In this document: positions 7,760 to 17,894 of the stretch, piece by piece
Numbering within the stretch: the first letter of the stretch is position 1
How the letters are laid out: each line of letters starts with the position of its first letter
Assembly (NCBI GenBank): GCA_030831125.1
Contig: JAURLQ010000138.1
Location: 1-34,155, forward strand
Source: Gammaproteobacteria bacterium
Lineage (GTDB): Bacteria > Pseudomonadota > Gammaproteobacteria > Pseudomonadales > Pseudohongiellaceae
Direction of reading: 5' to 3'
DNA length: 34,155 nucleotides
Translations under genes and position numbers: made by a program
Notes under the pieces: model-generated
Told to the model about the DNA's origin: nothing
The model's input: only the letters and a program-made list of their open reading frames with translations
Database searches by the model: none

Positions 7760-7791
7760 CCGCACTGAAGAGCAGAAATGCTTCAGTGCGG
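7760..7791. terminator. Bidirectional hairpin between convergent genes
   Basis: CCGCACTGAAG (7760-7770) pairs perfectly with CTTCAGTGCGG (7781-7791), an 11-bp stem. An alternative pairing of the top gives AGCA/TGCT closing a GAAA tetraloop with a 2-base bulge. It lies between the symporter stop (7706) and the stop of the minus-strand gene (7804), the right place for a shared terminator. No long T-run follows on either strand. Confidence 0.6.
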
Positions 7792-7803
7792 GACTACAGA
7801 AAA

Positions 7804-8595
7804 CTACTGATCGGTACCCAGCATGCGAATAGGGTCGAGATTGTTTTCCTGACAAAGATAATCGAAAGGCTCGTTGCCATCCCCGAAAGTCAGGAACCAG
7901 CCGCCGGTCCATTGCCGTGAGTAGGCACCGGGATCATCTATGGTCATTTCGTAACGCAGGGTGTCGAAGTCAGGTCTCGAAAAGCGTTCGATGGTATGCA
8001 GCTGTTCAGTGTGCGGATAACCATCCCTTGTGATCCAGAACTTGTCATCACCCAGAAAGCCCACAGTATCAACCACCAGTGTGTCACCTTCCCAGTGGCC
8101 AACAGAATGGCCGTACCAGCCTGGTTCAAGGTCGGCAGGGTGTTCACGGCCATCCATGAAAATCTGCCGCCAGGAATGTGGTGAGCCAACGCCAATAATG
8201 AACACCTGATCACCGGTATCGAGGATTTCCAGACCATAGGGCGTATGGAACATGCGCGCACCACCTGAAGGTTTACAGCGTGTATGCGGGTCACTGGCTC
8301 CGCCTTCAGTCAGGCGCTGGGCGTGCAGTTCCTTTGCCCATGGCAGAAACGGCACCTTATCATAGGGCAGGTTTTCAGGAATATTGCCACGCTGGTTGGG
8401 GTTTCGATTGGCCAGTGATCCGAGCAGTCCGTTCCAGTTGCCGGGATGATCCGGGGTGCCGGCAAAACTGATATGCCCGAACTCGTTACGCGGCACAATG
8501 CGCTCTTCAGCCTCTTCTGCAGCCTGTGCCTGCACAGTACCTGTGCCTGCAACAAGCAGAGTTATAACAAGCGCCAGGCTGTTCAGTTGCTTCAT
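7804..8595 (-). CDS. Exported protein of unknown function, paralogue of the 9141-9947 lipoprotein
   Basis: 263 aa from ATG 8595, which has AAAGGGGACA six bases upstream; a further in-frame ATG at 8613 adds only six residues. The N-terminus (MKQLNSLALVITLLVAGTGTVQAQA) is a signal peptide ending in an AQA-type site. The mature part has a block shared with the gene at 9141-9947: DPHTRCKPSGG-R, W-R-x-I-x-x-DGR, then SVGHWEGDTLVVDTVGF, PHTEQLH, ERFSRPDFDTL, DDPGAYSRQW and a late Cys (YLCQE). I recognise this as an uncharacterised family often found beside DUF6152 genes, without known activity. It is the last gene of a four-gene minus-strand cluster, 23 bases after the DUF6152 gene. Confidence 0.82.
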   Translation of the reverse strand: MKQLNSLALVITLLVAGTGTVQAQAAEEAEERIVPRNEFGHISFAGTPDHPGNWNGLLGSLANRNPNQRGNIPENLPYDKVPFLPWAKELHAQRLTEGGASDPHTRCKPSGGARMFHTPYGLEILDTGDQVFIIGVGSPHSWRQIFMDGREHPADLEPGWYGHSVGHWEGDTLVVDTVGFLGDDKFWITRDGYPHTEQLHTIERFSRPDFDTLRYEMTIDDPGAYSRQWTGGWFLTFGDGNEPFDYLCQENNLDPIRMLGTDQ

Positions 8596-8618
8596 GGCTT
8601 TGTCCCCTTTCATTTGGG

Positions 8619-9047
8619 TTATTCCCTGTTCCTGCCACCACCGGTGAGAGTTTGTTGTTCGCTCGATGCAGCGCCAAGCACTTCACCTGTTTGTGAAAGC
8701 GTTACGCTGCGGGCATTTGCTGTAAGGCTGCCATCACGGGCACGTGTGGCTTCAACCAGCAATTCGTCACCTATCGCCATGGAGTTCTTTTTCCAGCCGC
8801 TGTTCTGCAGCATGTGCGGGGGACCCATTTCTATACCCCAGTTTTCTATGGTGCCGGTTTCCGGATTCTCTACGTCAATGTAGAAATATACATGCGGGTT
8901 GTACCACTCGATCCTGGTAACCCAGCCTTTCAGGTTGACCACCTTGGTGCTGTCGTACTGGGCAGAAAATGAGTGATGGGCAAATACCTGCTGAACCATC
9001 ACCAGCGCACAACATGTTGCAGTCAACAGTTTAATCAAAGTTTTCAT
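8619..9047 (-). CDS. DUF6152 family periplasmic protein
   Basis: 142 aa. A signal peptide (MKTLIKLLTATCCALVMVQQ) ends in VFA, followed directly by HHSFSAQYD; cleavage after VFA would leave His-His at the mature N-terminus. The rest matches the DUF6152 pattern: LKGWVTRIEWYNPHVYFYIDV, NWGIEMGPPHML, GWKKNSMAIGDELLVEA, ANARSVTL. It is probably a small beta-barrel or OB-like fold. AGAGGAAAG precedes the ATG. Function of the family is not established. It sits between two paralogous exported proteins, so the products probably act together in the cell envelope. The N-terminal His and other His residues make metal binding possible, but that is inference. Confidence 0.88.
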   Translation of the reverse strand: MKTLIKLLTATCCALVMVQQVFAHHSFSAQYDSTKVVNLKGWVTRIEWYNPHVYFYIDVENPETGTIENWGIEMGPPHMLQNSGWKKNSMAIGDELLVEATRARDGSLTANARSVTLSQTGEVLGAASSEQQTLTGGGRNRE

Positions 9048-9064
9048 TGCACTTTCCTCTTCAA

Positions 9065-9089
9065 GGAAACGGCTTCTTGGCCCGTTTCC
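9065..9089 (-). other. Intergenic hairpin inside the exported-protein cluster
   Basis: GGAAACGG (9065-9072) and CCGTTTCC (9082-9089) form a perfect 8-bp stem with a 9-base loop. It lies in the 93-base gap between the lipoprotein gene and the DUF6152 gene, just upstream of the DUF6152 ribosome site. No T-run follows on the minus strand, so it may be an RNA processing or stabilising hairpin that sets different levels of the genes on either side. Confidence 0.45.
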
Positions 9090-9140
9090 CGGTTGTTCAT
9101 GTTTTTCCCTTTTGCGGGCAGGGGCCTTGCTTCCGGTCTG

Positions 9141-9947
9141 TTACTGCTCGCAGAACTGCTCTTCAATATCACCCTCTACCCAATGCAGGGACCATTCTGC
9201 CACCCAGGGTCTGGTGTAGGTGCGAGGGTCATCGACAGTGACGTTATATATGAGTGTGTCGTGATCCACTCTGGTAAAACGTTCAGTCAGTTTCAGGGCA
9301 GGTGTATGGGGCAGCCCGCCGTTGCTGAACCAGAAGCGATCATTGAAACCGGTGGATTCCACTACCAGCGTGTCGTCTTCCCAGTGGCCGCGCGAATAGC
9401 CGAAATAGGTACCAACCACTTCATCCAGATCTGGTGCTGGGCGACCATCAAGCTCAATGTGCCGCCAGTTACGATTGCCTCCTCCGAACAGCACATAGAA
9501 TCTGTCGAAATTGCGATCGTGGATCATCCTGAAACCCTTTGGATCCATCAGATGACGCGGACCTGCAGGTGAAATACAGGCATTGACCGGATCATCCCTG
9601 AGCCCGTTTGCCTGTCGGTATTTGTAAAGTGCCACAGACCAGTCCATGAACGGTGCCACTTTGGTGGCATCATCGGGGTTTGCGAGCAAGCCCCGTTCAT
9701 CCATTGGTACATTCACACCCTTTTCGACCAGTGAATGCATGGAGGGGTTTGCCCAGTATCCGCTTTCACCGGGCATGCGGTCGAAGCGCACCAGGCCATC
9801 TTCATAGCGGGGGGTGGGCGTGCTTGCTGATGCGGCCTGTGTGGTGACGGTATTTTCAATAGCTGCCTCGGTACCTGTATCGCCACCGCATCCGGCCAGT
9901 AACATGGCCAGGATCAACAGGGAGCTGTGCTTGACTGCTGCTTTCAT
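9141..9947 (-). CDS. Lipoprotein of unknown function, DUF6152-cluster paralogue
   Basis: 268 aa with a lipoprotein signal: LLAGC at about residues 16-20 followed by Gly-Gly-Asp, so no Asp at +2 and outer-membrane sorting is expected. After a Thr/Ala/Ser-rich linker the mature domain matches the gene at 7804-8595: DDPVNACISPAGPRH, NWRHIELDGRPAPDLDE, YFGYSRGHWEDDTLVVES, GFNDRFWF, LPHTPALKL, ERFTRVDHDTLIYN, DDPRTYTRPW and a C-terminal Cys (EQFCEQ). One copy is therefore lipid-anchored and the other soluble. Its ATG lies 8 bases after the stop of the preceding 127-aa gene, with GGGAG before it. No enzymatic motif that I recognise. Confidence 0.82.
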   Translation of the reverse strand: MKAAVKHSSLLILAMLLAGCGGDTGTEAAIENTVTTQAASASTPTPRYEDGLVRFDRMPGESGYWANPSMHSLVEKGVNVPMDERGLLANPDDATKVAPFMDWSVALYKYRQANGLRDDPVNACISPAGPRHLMDPKGFRMIHDRNFDRFYVLFGGGNRNWRHIELDGRPAPDLDEVVGTYFGYSRGHWEDDTLVVESTGFNDRFWFSNGGLPHTPALKLTERFTRVDHDTLIYNVTVDDPRTYTRPWVAEWSLHWVEGDIEEQFCEQ

Positions 9948-9955
9948 GTTCTTGC

Positions 9956-10339
9956 TTACTCCCTGGTCAGCACAAGTGGGTAGGTCATGCCATTCTGGGT
10001 CCAGGTGCCAGTGAGCGTACGATTGTAGGAGCCCAGCTCACCCAGCACACCATCAATGACAACCGGCTGGCCGTCCCGGGTTTGTGCATCAATATGCACG
10101 CGCCACCCGGCGGCATCCAGCGTTGCATTGGTAAAGCTGATTGTATTGCGGCCGGGATTGATACGGCCATTGATTGTGGTGCCATCCCAGTCCATGACAA
10201 CCACAGCGAGCGTTTGTTCGCCACCAGCCATTCCCCATTCACCACGCCAGGTGCCGTCCAGGGGGTAACCTTCCTGGGCGAATACCGGAAATGCAAAACA
10301 GGCTACAACAATCAACAAGAGTGGTTTGATCAGCTTCAT
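9956..10339 (-). CDS. Small exported beta-rich protein of unknown function
   Basis: 127 aa from ATG 10339 with AAAGG upstream; a TTG at 10357 is in frame but less likely. The signal peptide is MKLIKPLLLIVVACFAFPVFA, cleaved before QEG. The mature part opens with YPLDGTWRGEWG and alternates short beta-like strands with Gly/Asp turns (VVVMDWDGTTINGRINPG, TLTGTWTQNGMTYPL), suggesting a lipocalin- or avidin-sized barrel. No catalytic motif is visible. It is the first gene of the four-gene exported cluster and is separated from the lipoprotein gene by 8 bases. Fold assignment is inference from strand pattern only. Confidence 0.75.
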   Translation of the reverse strand: MKLIKPLLLIVVACFAFPVFAQEGYPLDGTWRGEWGMAGGEQTLAVVVMDWDGTTINGRINPGRNTISFTNATLDAAGWRVHIDAQTRDGQPVVIDGVLGELGSYNRTLTGTWTQNGMTYPLVLTRE

Positions 10340-11890: not shown

Positions 11891-12838
11891 TTATTGCTGG
11901 CGGCCAATGGCCATTTCGAGTCTGGCTACCAGAAATGCGCTGCCATCGCGTGGCAGATGGGATGCCTGTTTTTCCCAGCTGTAACCCGGGCCCAGTTCCC
12001 AGAACAGCCAGGGACGTGAAAAGTTGCGCCTTATCCGCAAACCGACCTGATACAGGGCGGTATAGTCGTGCTCGGTATTGCCGGCCACCCGGGCGAACAC
12101 GCTGAGACCTCCGGTATCAGAGAAGCGCCAGAGTTGTTGCAGAGAGCTGCTCCATTCCAGACCGTCGAATGATTCTTCAGCCTTGAGTTCGTTTGACCAG
12201 CGCAAAATCTGGTCATTATCGAAACTCTTGTCCAGCTGGTACTGGCTGAAACTGCCAAAACCCTTGCCATCTATGAAATACAGGCTCTGGGTAAACCGGT
12301 TGAAGTATTTTTCGCCCAACGGTTTGGTATAGCGGTATCGCACGCTGCTGCGCAATTTCAGGCTGGATCTCAGGCCTACCCGAAAGTCAATGCGATGGTT
12401 GTCGTTTTCGCCCAGATTCAGTTCCAGATTGAGTCTGGTGCTGCGGGGTTTTTCCAGCAGCTCATTCTGGTTGTAATAACTGGTACCTTCACCCTGGTCT
12501 TCCGAAAAAATCAGGCGAAGTCGTTCTGTAACCCCCGGTAGATGGACAGTGCCCCTCAGCCGAAGCCTGTAGTCCATGCCTTCATTTTCATTCCAGCGTG
12601 ATTCAGTAATCAGTCTGAGCGAAGAATAGGCGGCTTCAACATCGCTGCGGGGAACACCAAAAAAACGGTCGAGACTCTGGGCCATGGCATCAGCACGGTT
12701 GCTGCTGAAGTCCCTCGTCTGGTCGAGCCAGCCCAGCCCGAAAAAAGGCTTGTTATCTTCCTGGGCCTGCACAGGTTTGGCAAGAACCCAAAAAGCCGGG
12801 AGCAGACAGGCGACTGAAAATATTCTGTGCAAGTGCAT
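11891..12838 (-). CDS. Exported outer-membrane-like beta-barrel protein, unknown function
   Basis: 315 aa from ATG 12838; the frame extends to a TTG at 12871 inside the 20-bp palindrome, which is unlikely. The signal peptide is MHLHRIFSVACLLPAFWVLA and on to VQAQ. The mature protein alternates charged and aromatic residues in many short strands (YRLRLRGTVHLPG, RIDFRVGLRSSLKLRSSVRYRY, WLFWELGPGYSWE) and ends in FLVARLEMAIGRQQ, as expected for a transmembrane barrel, though the last residue is not aromatic. I do not recognise a named family. It is upstream of and probably co-transcribed with the Bcr/CflA exporter, and divergent from hsp20. Confidence 0.75.
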   Translation of the reverse strand: MHLHRIFSVACLLPAFWVLAKPVQAQEDNKPFFGLGWLDQTRDFSSNRADAMAQSLDRFFGVPRSDVEAAYSSLRLITESRWNENEGMDYRLRLRGTVHLPGVTERLRLIFSEDQGEGTSYYNQNELLEKPRSTRLNLELNLGENDNHRIDFRVGLRSSLKLRSSVRYRYTKPLGEKYFNRFTQSLYFIDGKGFGSFSQYQLDKSFDNDQILRWSNELKAEESFDGLEWSSSLQQLWRFSDTGGLSVFARVAGNTEHDYTALYQVGLRIRRNFSRPWLFWELGPGYSWEKQASHLPRDGSAFLVARLEMAIGRQQ

Positions 12839-12856
12839 ATTGGAGGTAATGAATAA

Positions 12857-12876
12857 ATGCTTTGACGTCAAAGCAT
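12857..12876. promoter_or_regulatory. Perfect 20-bp palindrome, candidate operator
   Basis: ATGCTTTGACGTCAAAGCAT equals its own reverse complement with no spacer. It lies 18 bases before the outer-membrane-like gene, inside the spacer shared with hsp20. The position and full symmetry suggest a dimeric repressor or activator site controlling the minus-strand gene pair. The TGACGTCA core does not identify a regulator to me, and none is encoded nearby. Confidence 0.6.
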
Positions 12877-15393: not shown

Positions 15394-16245
15394 TCAGTCC
15401 CAGAGCGCTTCTGCGTGATGGATAATGTGATCAGCTATGAATGAAGCGATGAAAAAGTAGCTGTGATCATAACCGGCGTGCATGCGCAGGGTCAGCGGAT
15501 GTTTTGCTGCCTGACATGCAGCCTGCAGCAGTTCCGGTTTGAGCTGGCCTGCCAGGAAATTGTCATCCTGACCCTGGTCAACCAGTATATGGAGCCTTTC
15601 TTTCGCGCCGGGAATCAGCGCACAGGTATCATACTGTTCCCAGTCGGCCTTGTTGCTGCCAATGTAATTGCCCAGAGCCTTTTCGCCCCAGGGGCAGTTC
15701 ATGGGTGAGCAGATAGGAGAAAATGCAGAAACAGCCTTGTATACGCCGGGATTCTTCAGCGCAATGGTCAGGGCGCCATGGCCTCCCATAGAGTGACCCA
15801 TTATTGAACAGTTTGCTGTATCAAGCGGCAGGTTGCTGTGTTCCAGTACCTTGGGCAATTCACTCGTGACGTAATCATACATGTGGTAATTCTTTGACCA
15901 GGGATTCTGGGTGGCGTTCACATAGAATCCGGCACCAAGTCCGAAGTCGTAGGCCTTTTCCGGGTCATCAGGCACATCATCACCGCGAGGGCTGGTATCG
16001 GGACATACAATGGCAACACCAGCTTCTGCTGCATACTGCTGAGCGCCGGCTTTCTGCACAAAATTGTCATCCGTGCAGGTGAGGCCAGACAGCCAGTAAA
16101 TTACGGGAACCTTGCTGCCTTCCTTTGCATTGGGAGGCAGGAATACAGAAAAGATCATGTTGCAGCCAAGCACACTGGATGCATGTTTGAATTTGATCTG
16201 TTGTCCGCCAAACATCCTGTTGGCGCTGACTTGTTCAAGACTCAT
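15394..16245 (-). CDS. fghA: S-formylglutathione hydrolase
   Basis: 283-aa cytosolic esterase that splits S-formylglutathione into formate and glutathione, the second step of glutathione-dependent formaldehyde detoxification. It has the alpha/beta-hydrolase fold with nucleophile S152 in MGHSMGGHGAL, the acid at about D227/D228 in DQGQDDNFLAGQLKP and H261 in GYDHSYFF. The N-terminal VIYWLSGLTCTDDNFVQKAG and the DTSPRGDDVPDD loop are typical of the family. AGAGGT precedes the ATG. The preceding enzyme of the pathway is the next gene upstream (16431-17534), but a terminator lies between, so fghA may have its own promoter or depend on read-through. Confidence 0.96.
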   Translation of the reverse strand: MSLEQVSANRMFGGQQIKFKHASSVLGCNMIFSVFLPPNAKEGSKVPVIYWLSGLTCTDDNFVQKAGAQQYAAEAGVAIVCPDTSPRGDDVPDDPEKAYDFGLGAGFYVNATQNPWSKNYHMYDYVTSELPKVLEHSNLPLDTANCSIMGHSMGGHGALTIALKNPGVYKAVSAFSPICSPMNCPWGEKALGNYIGSNKADWEQYDTCALIPGAKERLHILVDQGQDDNFLAGQLKPELLQAACQAAKHPLTLRMHAGYDHSYFFIASFIADHIIHHAEALWD

Positions 16246-16385
16246 GGTAATACCTCTTTGTTGGCAGCTTGCGTTTCACAAGACTGACGTGCAGGTGTCA
16301 GAGTAAACCTGCCGTTAAGTATCGATCAGGGCTGGTGCGGATGAAGGTTCACTCTTGCACCTTCCAGCAGACAGCATCTTCAGAA

Positions 16386-16416
16386 ATAAAAAAGGGGCCA
16401 GGTGACTGACCCCTTC
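16386..16416 (-). terminator. Intrinsic terminator after frmA
   Basis: On the minus strand GGGGTCAG pairs with CTGGCCCC (one G-T wobble) around the loop TCAC, followed by a run of T (plus-strand A-run at about 16384-16393). It sits 15-20 bases after the frmA stop and ahead of fghA. Confidence 0.85.
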
Positions 16417-16430
16417 GGTTACTGCTTTGC

Positions 16431-17534
16431 TCAGTAGATTACTACGGAGCGGATACTTTCGCCTGCATGCATCAGGTGGAAAGCATCGTTGATCTTGTCC
16501 AGTGGCATGGTGTGGGTGATCATTTCGTCGATCTTGATCTTCTTGTCCATGTACCAGTCCACGATTTTCGGTACGTCGGTACGGCCACGGGCACCACCGA
16601 ATGCTGTGCCACGCCAGGAGCGTCCGGTTACCAGTTGGAAGGGGCGAGTGGAAATTTCCTGACCTGCTCCTGCCACACCGATGATGAAGGATTGTCCCCA
16701 GCCCTTGTGGGTACATTCCAGCGCCTGACGCATGACTTTTACATTGCCGATACATTCGAAGCTGTAGTCAACACCACCAGTCATCTGGACGATGTGATCC
16801 ACAACGCTCTCGACATCCTTCGGATTGATGAAGTCGGTCATGCCGAACTGCTTGCCGAGTGCTTCACGTTTCGGGTTCAGGTCGATACCGATTATGCGGC
16901 TGGCGCCGGCCAGTTTTGCACCCTGGATTACGTTGAGGCCAATACCACCCAGACCGAAAACGGCAACAGTGGAGCCTATTTCAACCTTGGCCTGGAAGAC
17001 CACGGCACCTACACCAGTGGTAACACCACAACCGATGTAGCAGATGGTTTCAAAGGGAGCGTCTTCACGAACCTTGGCCAGTGAAATTTCGGGTAGTACG
17101 GTGTAGTTGGAAAAGGTGGAGCAGCCCATGTAATGCAGAATGGGTTTGCCTTCAAAGGAGAAGCGGCTGGTGCCATCAGGCATCAGGCCTTTGCCCTGGG
17201 TTGAACGCACTTTCTGGCACAGGTTGGTACGGGGATGCAGACAGTATTCGCATTCACGACATTCGGCAGTGTAAAGCGGAATCACGTGGTCGCCTTTTTT
17301 CAGACCCTTGACGCCAGGGCCTACATCGACCACAACGCCTGCACCTTCATGACCAAGAATTGCGGGGAAGGCGCCTTCAGGATCGTCTCCGCTAAGGGTG
17401 AAGGCATCGGTATGGCAAACGCCGGTAGCCTTGAGTTCTACAAGGACTTCACCTTCCTTCGGTCCTTCTACATCCACTTCGACAATTTCGAGTGGTTTGC
17501 CGGCCCCGAAGGCAACTGCTGCACGTGATTTCAT
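16431..17534 (-). CDS. frmA: S-(hydroxymethyl)glutathione dehydrogenase / class III alcohol dehydrogenase
   Basis: 367-aa NAD-dependent zinc enzyme that oxidises the spontaneous formaldehyde-glutathione adduct to S-formylglutathione; relatives also reduce S-nitrosoglutathione. Catalytic zinc ligands are C40 ([12 protein letters not shown]), H62 (GHEGAGVV) and C169 (IGCGVTTG). Structural zinc ligands are C92, C95, C98 and C106 ([18 protein letters not shown]). The NAD site is GLGGIG at 194-199. The ATG at 17534 has AAAGGAAA before it; the frame runs further upstream to 17648 without family similarity. No frmR-type regulator is adjacent. A weak TATATT (plus bases 17667-17672) may be its -10 box. 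Works with fghA downstream. Confidence 0.97.
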
Positions 17535-17894
17535 GGAAAATTTCCTTTTGTTTTGGTGAATTGAATTCTTGGCTGCCCGACTAATGCCTGTTGTCTGTGT
17601 CCCTCCTTGTACAGAAGGAACAGCAACACCACCCCTGAAGAGGACCAAGGCAGCTCAGAGCGGGCAAATATAGCGTCTTGAATCAGTGATGGGTAGTCCG
17701 TGAGCAGCAGTGCACAGTAATTTCATGCTGTAAATGTGTGCAGACCGATTACGCACCCCCGAACAGCACCACAATTACCTGTCCAGAATCGGCTATAAAT
17801 GGCGAGACTGCCAACAATCGGTATAATGCCCGGCTTTTGCGGGGCTCAGACAGCAGCCCCAGGTGCCCGGATCAGAATTTGAAGAGGAATATCC
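17535..17894. other. Divergent regulatory spacer between frmA and the ferredoxin gene
   Basis: 360 bases without a convincing gene. It holds the likely ferredoxin promoter (TATAAT, 17822-17827) and, on the minus strand, a weak TATATT for frmA. TCCTT/AAGGA around 17602-17617 is a minor dyad. Short frames across it lack ribosome sites and resemble nothing. Confidence 0.5.
17822..17860 (+). promoter_or_regulatory. Ferredoxin promoter -10 box and leader hairpin
   Basis: TATAAT (17822-17827) is a perfect -10 box; the -35 region about 17 bases upstream is poor, so an activator may be needed. The predicted leader of about 60 bases contains GGGGCT (17841-17846) and AGCCCC (17855-17860), a 6-bp hairpin ahead of the ribosome site GAAGAGGAA. 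Confidence 0.45.

Follow-up and report, generated by a model that had tools for sequence, protein, structure and literature searches.

Coupling and amplification of DUF6152 and a predicted calycin-like barrel family in a gammaproteobacterial genome: a candidate periplasmic two-component unit

Histidine was the first mature residue in 2.6% of the signal-peptide proteins of one training set, according to the portions of the report available to us (PMC12537917). The same portions describe the families found there by signal strapping, namely DUF4198 (Ni), DUF6702 (Ni, Co or Cu, modelled with three histidines) and Ang-1 and Ang-2 (Cu), the last two fused to HupE/UreJ permeases. Four N-terminal-histidine families were assayed in that study. 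They bound Ni or Cu, and any oxidase or peroxidase activity was weak or not significant. The histidine-brace copper proteins, lytic polysaccharide monooxygenases (LPMOs) and CopC, have an N-terminal and an internal histidine (excerpts of PMC10952591 and PMC7529816). A barrel protein coupled to a redox partner is described in excerpts of PMC9113575, the pair being the lipocalin BcnA and the cytochrome b561 LcoA. The present work concerns a 34,155-nucleotide stretch of DNA (the window), which is contig JAURLQ010000138.1 (C103 in our numbering) of a 3.16 Mb gammaproteobacterial genome that is 99.9% complete. The window contains a minus-strand cluster of four genes at 7804-10339, in which a gene for a protein of the domain of unknown function (DUF) family DUF6152 is flanked by two genes of a family termed GH here.

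DUF6152 resembles DUF4198, DUF6702 and Ang in having a conserved histidine right after the signal peptide together with further conserved likely ligands. One DUF6152 branch adjoins a membrane-protein gene, which recalls the permease-fused Ang-1 and Ang-2. DUF4198, DUF6702 and Ang-1 are beta-sandwich proteins, and no barrel partner is described for them in the available portions of PMC12537917, whereas DUF6152 has a predicted oligonucleotide/oligosaccharide-binding (OB) fold with His-His, is present dozens of times over and has a partner predicted to be calycin-like. The N-terminal and internal histidines of LPMO and CopC are paralleled in DUF6152, but its predicted fold appears to differ from those of the N-terminal-histidine proteins compared here, LPMO and CopC included, and its metal site is a prediction from sequence. 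GH-DUF6152 and BcnA-LcoA are alike in that a barrel, a predicted one in GH, is coupled to a redox or predicted metal partner. They differ in that partner, which is an N-terminal-histidine OB protein in the one and a cytochrome b561 in the other. PF19649 (DUF6152) and PF20349 (DUF6644) are Pfam families without a described function. No paper on DUF6152, DUF6644 or PF19649 was found in a search of the open-access literature, and DUF6152 is not mentioned in the main text of PMC12537917. The available portions of a paper on duplication in Solibacter (PMC3174227) and of a paper on tomatine and Sphingobium (PMC10653915) held nothing on the GH/DUF6152 family.

Genetic coupling and amplification of DUF6152 and GH

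The label GH was taken from the GHWE motif of the family, which is unrelated to the glycoside hydrolases. DUF6152 and GH are genetically coupled, as evidenced by fusions, adjacency and correlated trees, and both have undergone amplification, reaching dozens of copies in a genome. A tblastn search with the 269-amino-acid (aa) soluble GH protein of the window matched 69 places in its genome. PF19649 matched 57 DUF6152 domains above its cut-off in the same genome and none in 14 control genomes. The window and 47 stretches around the tblastn or PF19649 matches were scanned with profiles. They contained 115 open reading frames (ORFs) of the unit, comprising 49 with GH alone (two of these with two matches), 39 with DUF6152 alone, 18 DUF6152-GH fusions and 9 encoding B127, a family named after a secreted protein of 127 aa. 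GH-bearing ORFs numbered 67 in the 3.16 Mb. The 69 GH domain matches include two pieces of one protein (L068; L numbers denote surveyed loci), which was counted twice.

Fusion to GH accounted for 18 of the 57 DUF6152 domains, and 34 of the 39 unfused ones lay within 1 kb of a GH gene (32 on the same strand), giving a total of 52. Random placement would bring about 2.4 unfused DUF6152 genes within 1.5 kb of GH. Five unfused DUF6152 genes had no GH within 1 kb and two of these were at contig ends. B127 had nine members including that of the window, none of them more than 1.6 kb from a GH domain. Distances in the DUF6152 and GH trees were correlated for adjacent partners (r 0.50, 30 pairs, taking in 30 of the 39 unfused DUF6152) and also within the 18 fusions (r 0.76). 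None of 2000 permutations was as high in either case. A two-component DUF6152-GH unit is well supported. Sequence set A1 held 36 of the 49 GH-alone ORFs and set A2 held 37 of the 39 single DUF6152, the two left out being truncated. Overlapping or double GH frames were seen at L084:7416-9714 and L047:7594-9192 (655-aa and 532-aa ORFs), suggesting tandem GH fusions or frame breaks of the draft assembly.

A preliminary description of the window had reported four consecutive minus-strand genes that include DUF6152, and these were located. Read from 10339 to 7804, the direction of transcription, they are B127 (9956..10339), secreted; GHa (9141..9947), a 268-aa GH-family lipoprotein; DUF6152 (8619..9047), a secreted protein of 142 aa; and GHb (7804..8613), the soluble secreted GH protein of 269 aa. 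The intergenic gaps are 8, 93 and 5 bases. The DUF6152 protein matched PF19649 with an E value of 1.6e-27 (95.9 bits against a curated cut-off of 27). No Pfam family matched B127, GHa or GHb above its cut-off and NCBIfam likewise gave nothing over cut-off. GHa has the lipobox LLAGC at residues 16-20 with Cys20. The motifs said to be common to GHa and GHb are present in both, with GHWE-x-DTLVV at residues 172 and 187, PHT at 200 and 213, ERF-x-R at 209 and 222 and DDP-x-x-Y at 226 and 239, respectively. The two common cysteines had both been described as late. This applies to C254/C266, while C113/C124 is mid-chain. In alignment A5, made of GHb and 98 of the 101 listed external GH (99 sequences), the two columns held Cys in 99 of 99 and 96 of 97 sequences. 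B127 has a signal peptide followed by QEGYPLDGTWRGEWG, with a lipocalin-like GxW at the start. The match in a B127-GH profile comparison was confined to the signal peptide and did not show kinship.

The distribution of the unit was examined in relatives of the window's genome. Among 37 genomes, including the window's, DUF6152 was present in 24. These were the 24 members of the window's family, and the 13 others of the order had none. Copy number jumps between genera within this one family, from 1-2 per genome in five genera (8 genomes) to 18-75 in three genera that include the window's (16 genomes, some incomplete). GH was found in 25 of the 37 genomes with at most 72 candidates scored per genome, the 25th being represented by one weak match and lying outside the family. 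The external loci were obtained by scanning GTDB species genomes with a subset of GH; they are the best 80 of 564 and as a set are seeded on GH. Their sources included gammaproteobacterial, Nevskiaceae and acidobacterial (Bryobacterales, Terriglobia, Sulfopaludibacter, Luteitalea) metagenome-assembled genomes (MAGs). DUF6152 was present in 66 of these 80 loci, which held 33 further DUF6152-GH fusions. B127 occurred 34 times and was within 1 kb of GH or DUF6152 in 32 cases. Locus L146, with a GH and a DUF6152-GH fusion, belongs to a MAG whose title names Klebsiella pneumoniae, and this record is most likely misnamed. GH was also found in 9 plasmid records, 8 of which carried DUF6152, and all 8 were sphingomonad plasmids. 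Croceibacterium atlanticum has DUF6152 proteins under WP_053833713.1 and WP_046903031.1, and Novosphingobium sp. PP1Y is another carrier of the cluster.

A sample of the phylum was seeded on DUF6152, which was carried by 22 of 249 genomes, the window's included. The 27 loci from other genomes comprised 15 of a divergent type termed HHGW (L174-L188) and 12 of non-HHGW type (6 genomes). The four genes had been proposed to act as one envelope unit. The frequency of adjacency supports this proposal, and the fusions and correlated trees take the case further than spacing does. The regular company of DUF6152 and the flanking family also held in three sister genera, where DUF6152 is scarce and GH adjoined all 5 copies of the four genomes, and for the non-HHGW phylum loci, where GH was within the 3.3-kb stretch in 11 of 12. 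It did not hold for the HHGW type, with GH beside 0 of 15, and DUF6152 was without GH in 16 of the 27 loci of the whole phylum sample. Many sister-genus GH proteins (L200-L239) were of a stand-alone form of about 350 aa with IIDP and YACHEGNY-like motifs, as judged by eye. This subclass had no DUF6152 and no clearly recurrent neighbours.

Gene order was compared among the co-oriented runs of the 80 external loci. DUF6152-GH was found 24 times, GH-DUF6152 7 times and B127-DUF6152-GH 6 times, and B127-fusion-DUF6152-GH was found 8 times, with 2 longer runs in addition. Other runs were rarer. Acidobacteriota and Gammaproteobacteria alike had the order with the fusion in second place. The window order B127-GH-DUF6152-GH recurred in two loci (L088 and L089, gammaproteobacterial MAGs). 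The window does contain the pattern put forward previously, with DUF6152 between a lipid-anchored and a soluble copy. It was rejected as the defining arrangement, as only these 2 of 80 loci have the window order, and is a local variant.

A tree of 223 GH domains was constructed using FastTree and midpoint-rooted. GHa was placed among 38 GH domains that form one clade (support 0.993), 34 of them from DUF6152-GH fusions. The other 17 of the tree's 51 fusions were outside this clade. The nearest relatives of GHa were the unfused copies of L088 and L089, followed by the fusions L091, L166, L139, L154, L092 and L149, of which L139, L149 and L154 lack the HH motif. GHa and GHb had been described as paralogues, and they do belong to the same family. 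Because GHa falls among the fusion-type GHs, the two appear to be members of two old GH classes and not products of a local duplication. The simplest reading is that GHa is a fusion-type GH which lost its DUF6152 domain.

Predicted metal site of DUF6152 and predicted barrel of GH

A total of 189 DUF6152 sequences were compared (57 from the window's genome, 103 external and 29 from the phylum sample) and two truncated at the N-terminus were set aside. HH directly after the signal peptide together with the histidine of an NPH motif was found in 184 of the 187 with an intact N-terminus. Three lacked HH, of which two also lacked the third histidine and one lacked HH alone. The residue preceding HH was A, G or S in 183 of the 185 sequences with HH. 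By column, conservation was 185/188 for His24, 185/188 for His25, 187/189 for H52, 169/187 for E73 and 156/188 for D32. Trp70 and several glycines were also well conserved. The DUF6152 protein of the window has four histidines in all (24, 25, 52 and 78). His24 and His25 are encoded at 8973..8978 on the minus strand and follow VFA, and the codon of His52 in the NPH motif is at 8892..8894 on the same strand. The cleavage site was judged by eye from the -3/-1 rule. Because an A-x-A-like site directly precedes HH, mature DUF6152 most likely begins with His-His. A transition-metal site at His-His and the NPH histidine is strongly predicted from this conservation, and the position of the pair gives a sharp prediction, that of metal binding at residue 1.

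The Pfam models of LPMO and CopC gave no match to the window DUF6152, for which PF19649 was the only family listed at E values up to 10. A search of PDB sequences with the DUF6152 and B127 profiles returned only weak, unlikely matches. The natural fusion L102 of another genome was modelled with AlphaFold as one confident model (predicted local distance difference test, pLDDT, 86.3; predicted template modelling score, pTM, 0.83). The DUF6152 part of this model matched OB folds, the best structural match being PriB (Z 9.8, 80 residues, 2.3 Å). Sequence set A6 comprised 28 of the 30 listed fusions and 22 of the 61 single DUF6152.

GHb was modelled with 98 relatives (pLDDT 88.9, pTM 0.83). Its best structural match was a cellular retinol-binding protein (VIA Z 8.8, 124 residues, 3.5 Å), and 29 of 998 chains matched with a Z of 8 or more. 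Proteins of the intracellular lipid-binding protein (iLBP), fatty-acid-binding protein (FABP) and cellular retinoic acid-binding protein (CRABP) type and NanoLuc were among the matches listed. A GxW motif is the calycin signature at the first strand. In the A5 alignment of GH the corresponding columns were G58 (99/99) and W60 (97/99), at the opening of the barrel, so that GH shares with the lipocalins and FABP/iLBP proteins a GxW near the N-terminus. Helices at residues 91-123 of GH sit between the first strand and the next. The lid of FABP is in this position. GH is probably a calycin/FABP-like barrel with a helical lid, as modelled. None of the 99 A5 members matched Pfam or NCBIfam at an E value of 0.01 or lower, and no relative was found among PDB sequences at an E value of 1 or lower.

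Proposed mechanism and alternatives

The explanation preferred here, and held tentatively, is a periplasmic two-component unit of a constant N-terminal-histidine metal module and a variable small-molecule barrel, massively amplified. Cleavage by signal peptidase would leave DUF6152 starting with His1-His2. These residues and the NPH-turn histidine, perhaps with Glu73 or Asp32, would bind a transition-metal ion on the OB-fold module. The GH barrel with its helical lid would hold a small, probably hydrophobic organic ligand. The metal module may dock on the barrel, as it does covalently in the fusions, and the constant metal centre may act on, or bridge to, the ligand picked by the variable barrel. 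One copy of the unit would serve each ligand or substrate. In the window GHa would tether the unit to a membrane and GHb would work with DUF6152 in the periplasm. Chemistry on the ligand is considered slightly more likely than capture and hand-over.

A more specific form of this explanation is a new class of periplasmic metalloenzymes with a constant His-His OB subunit, interchangeable calycin substrate barrels and more than fifty isoenzymes in a 3.2-Mb genome. This is rated as unlikely. If true, each unit would oxidise or cleave a small organic molecule of its own, outside the cytoplasm, and the class would be common to Gammaproteobacteria, sphingomonads and Acidobacteriota. The units, which are unannotated, amount to 115 ORFs of a single genome. 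No family model was found for GH and DUF6152 is itself a DUF. If enzymatic, they would reveal a form of extracellular chemistry at work in many uncultured bacteria. If they serve in the capture of metals or ligands, they would still account for a large part of the hypothetical secretome of these genomes.

A number of results weigh against the preferred explanation. The best Foldseek E value for the GH model was 0.034, a moderate fold match. GH also occurs on its own. In the window's genome 12 of the 69 GH domain matches had no DUF6152 within 1.5 kb, a lone GH was the commonest run in the external loci (26), and 36 of 40 sister-genus stretches around GH copies were without DUF6152 (4 with). The DUF6152 sequences are interrelated, so the 184 of 187 with the histidines are not 184 independent events, and the joint loss of HH and the third histidine rests on 3 sequences. 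The families neighbouring the units are diverse, their enrichment is weak and no substrate is named by them. Binding or traffic rather than catalysis is suggested by the known N-terminal-histidine proteins, whose oxidase or peroxidase activity is given as weak or not significant in the available portions of PMC12537917. The pairing of the HHGW branch with a membrane protein fits metal traffic better.

Metal traffic is the alternative that survives best, although it is considered doubtful. DUF6152 would be a periplasmic metal catcher in the manner of Ang-1, Ang-2 and CopC, and GH would bind metal-chelating organics such as metallophores or metal-loaded natural ligands and hand the metal to DUF6152, with onward transfer to DUF6644 in some lineages. 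It is favoured by the HHGW branch. A gene for a small DUF6644-like membrane protein was found beside DUF6152 in 15 of 15 HHGW loci, using a profile of 10 sequences of which 6 came from these same 15 loci. PF20349 itself matched all 6 HHGW-linked membrane proteins tested at E values of 5e-5 or better, only one of them scoring above the curated cut-off. A GH-DUF6152 cluster with two DUF6644-like neighbours was present on three of four sphingomonad plasmid stretches (L240-L242), and in L242 both neighbours were over the PF20349 cut-off. A TonB receptor was annotated close by in 2 of the 4 stretches. The permease-fused N-terminal-histidine domains, which bind Cu and show little enzyme activity in the available portions of PMC12537917, point the same way. 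With GH as its companion in one branch and a DUF6644-like protein in the HHGW branch, DUF6152 has the look of a portable module that takes two kinds of partner. DUF6644-like genes were rare elsewhere (1/46 own, 3/45 sister-genus and 1/80 external loci). The window's genome had only six DUF6644 matches, three of them over cut-off and two near one unit, against 57 DUF6152, and 57 copies are many for metal uptake. TonB receptors were not enriched near its units, with 4 of 37 within 6 kb (expected 6.3) and 2 of 37 within 3 kb (expected 3.9). The one HHGW-type DUF6152 of the window's genome (L042:7395-7766) was without GH or DUF6644 in its stretch and was followed about 185 bases downstream by a SnoaL-like gene (L042:6757-7209).

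Ligand capture without metal chemistry is a less probable alternative and is judged quite unlikely. The GH proteins would be periplasmic small-molecule binders, comparable to other amplified solute-binding families, and the DUF6152 histidines would serve in docking or structure. The FABP-like predicted fold of GH and the frequent occurrence of GH without DUF6152 are in its favour, as is the catabolic character of the neighbouring genes. Of the ORFs neighbouring the units, 109 of 455 were scanned in the window's genome and 108 of 535 in external loci. Those in the window's genome were varied and included cytochrome c, pyrroloquinoline quinone (PQQ) dehydrogenases, esterases, tannases, LigB dioxygenases and DUF1592-type proteins, with luciferase-like monooxygenases also among the catabolic neighbours. 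Those in external loci included PQQ dehydrogenases and outer-membrane receptor-type barrels, and RraA-like and amidohydrolase genes were seen by eye. A genome-wide enrichment test was carried out for four families at two distances, uncorrected, with rows merged by hand for PQQ dehydrogenases (47 to 30) and cytochrome c (40 to 33). Within 6 kb of units there were 10 of 30 PQQ dehydrogenases (expected 5.1), a modest enrichment, and 2 of 5 LigB (expected 0.9). Within 3 kb these were 6 of 30 (expected 3.1) and 2 of 5 (expected 0.5), respectively. This context is consistent with the handling of varied organic compounds by the units. Docking alone hardly accounts for an HH conserved at the exact predicted mature N-terminus of two branches whose partners differ.

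Envelope redox protection is improbable. The pair would detoxify oxidised hydrophobic molecules in the way of BcnA and LcoA, an analogy of working drawn from excerpts of PMC9113575. Cytochrome c genes were modestly enriched near the units, with 13 of 33 within 6 kb (expected 5.6) and 8 of 33 within 3 kb (expected 3.5). A histidine in the first predicted membrane stretch was common to all 10 aligned DUF6644-like sequences, as judged by eye, and is likewise in favour of this alternative. The dozens of diverged copies per genome are left unexplained, and GH has no Pfam relation to known lipocalin families. That the four exported genes are unrelated and neighbours by coincidence, for which the 93-base gap between the lipoprotein gene and DUF6152 could be cited, is hardly credible given the fusions, a gene order kept in two phyla, adjacency far above chance and the correlated trees.

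Other features of the window

An 11-bp perfect inverted repeat with a 10-base loop, CCGCACTGAAG ... CTTCAGTGCGG, is located just past the last stop of the cluster (7760..7791, minus strand) and is possibly the end of the unit. It was read directly in the sequence, where no T run follows it, and it was missed by the terminator scan, whose loop limit was 8. The promoter and terminator scan was uninformative, with 4 promoter-like sites (2.5 in shuffles) and 1 terminator-like site (2.9 in shuffles). A site of the amino-terminal copper and nickel (ATCUN) type on B127 was considered and rejected, the window copy having Tyr where eight relatives have His. A predicted secreted protein of 326 aa is encoded at 11891-12871, next to a gene for a major facilitator superfamily (MFS) transporter, and had no Pfam match at E values up to 10. 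At 18706-20225 genes for a nucleotidyltransferase resembling MobA and for an XdhC-like protein were recognised by eye, presumably for the maturation of a molybdenum enzyme. Genes for an S-formylglutathione hydrolase and a glutathione-dependent formaldehyde dehydrogenase, also seen by eye, are located at 15394-17648. We take these to be a formaldehyde detoxification pair, which would presumably suit the breakdown of methoxylated compounds.

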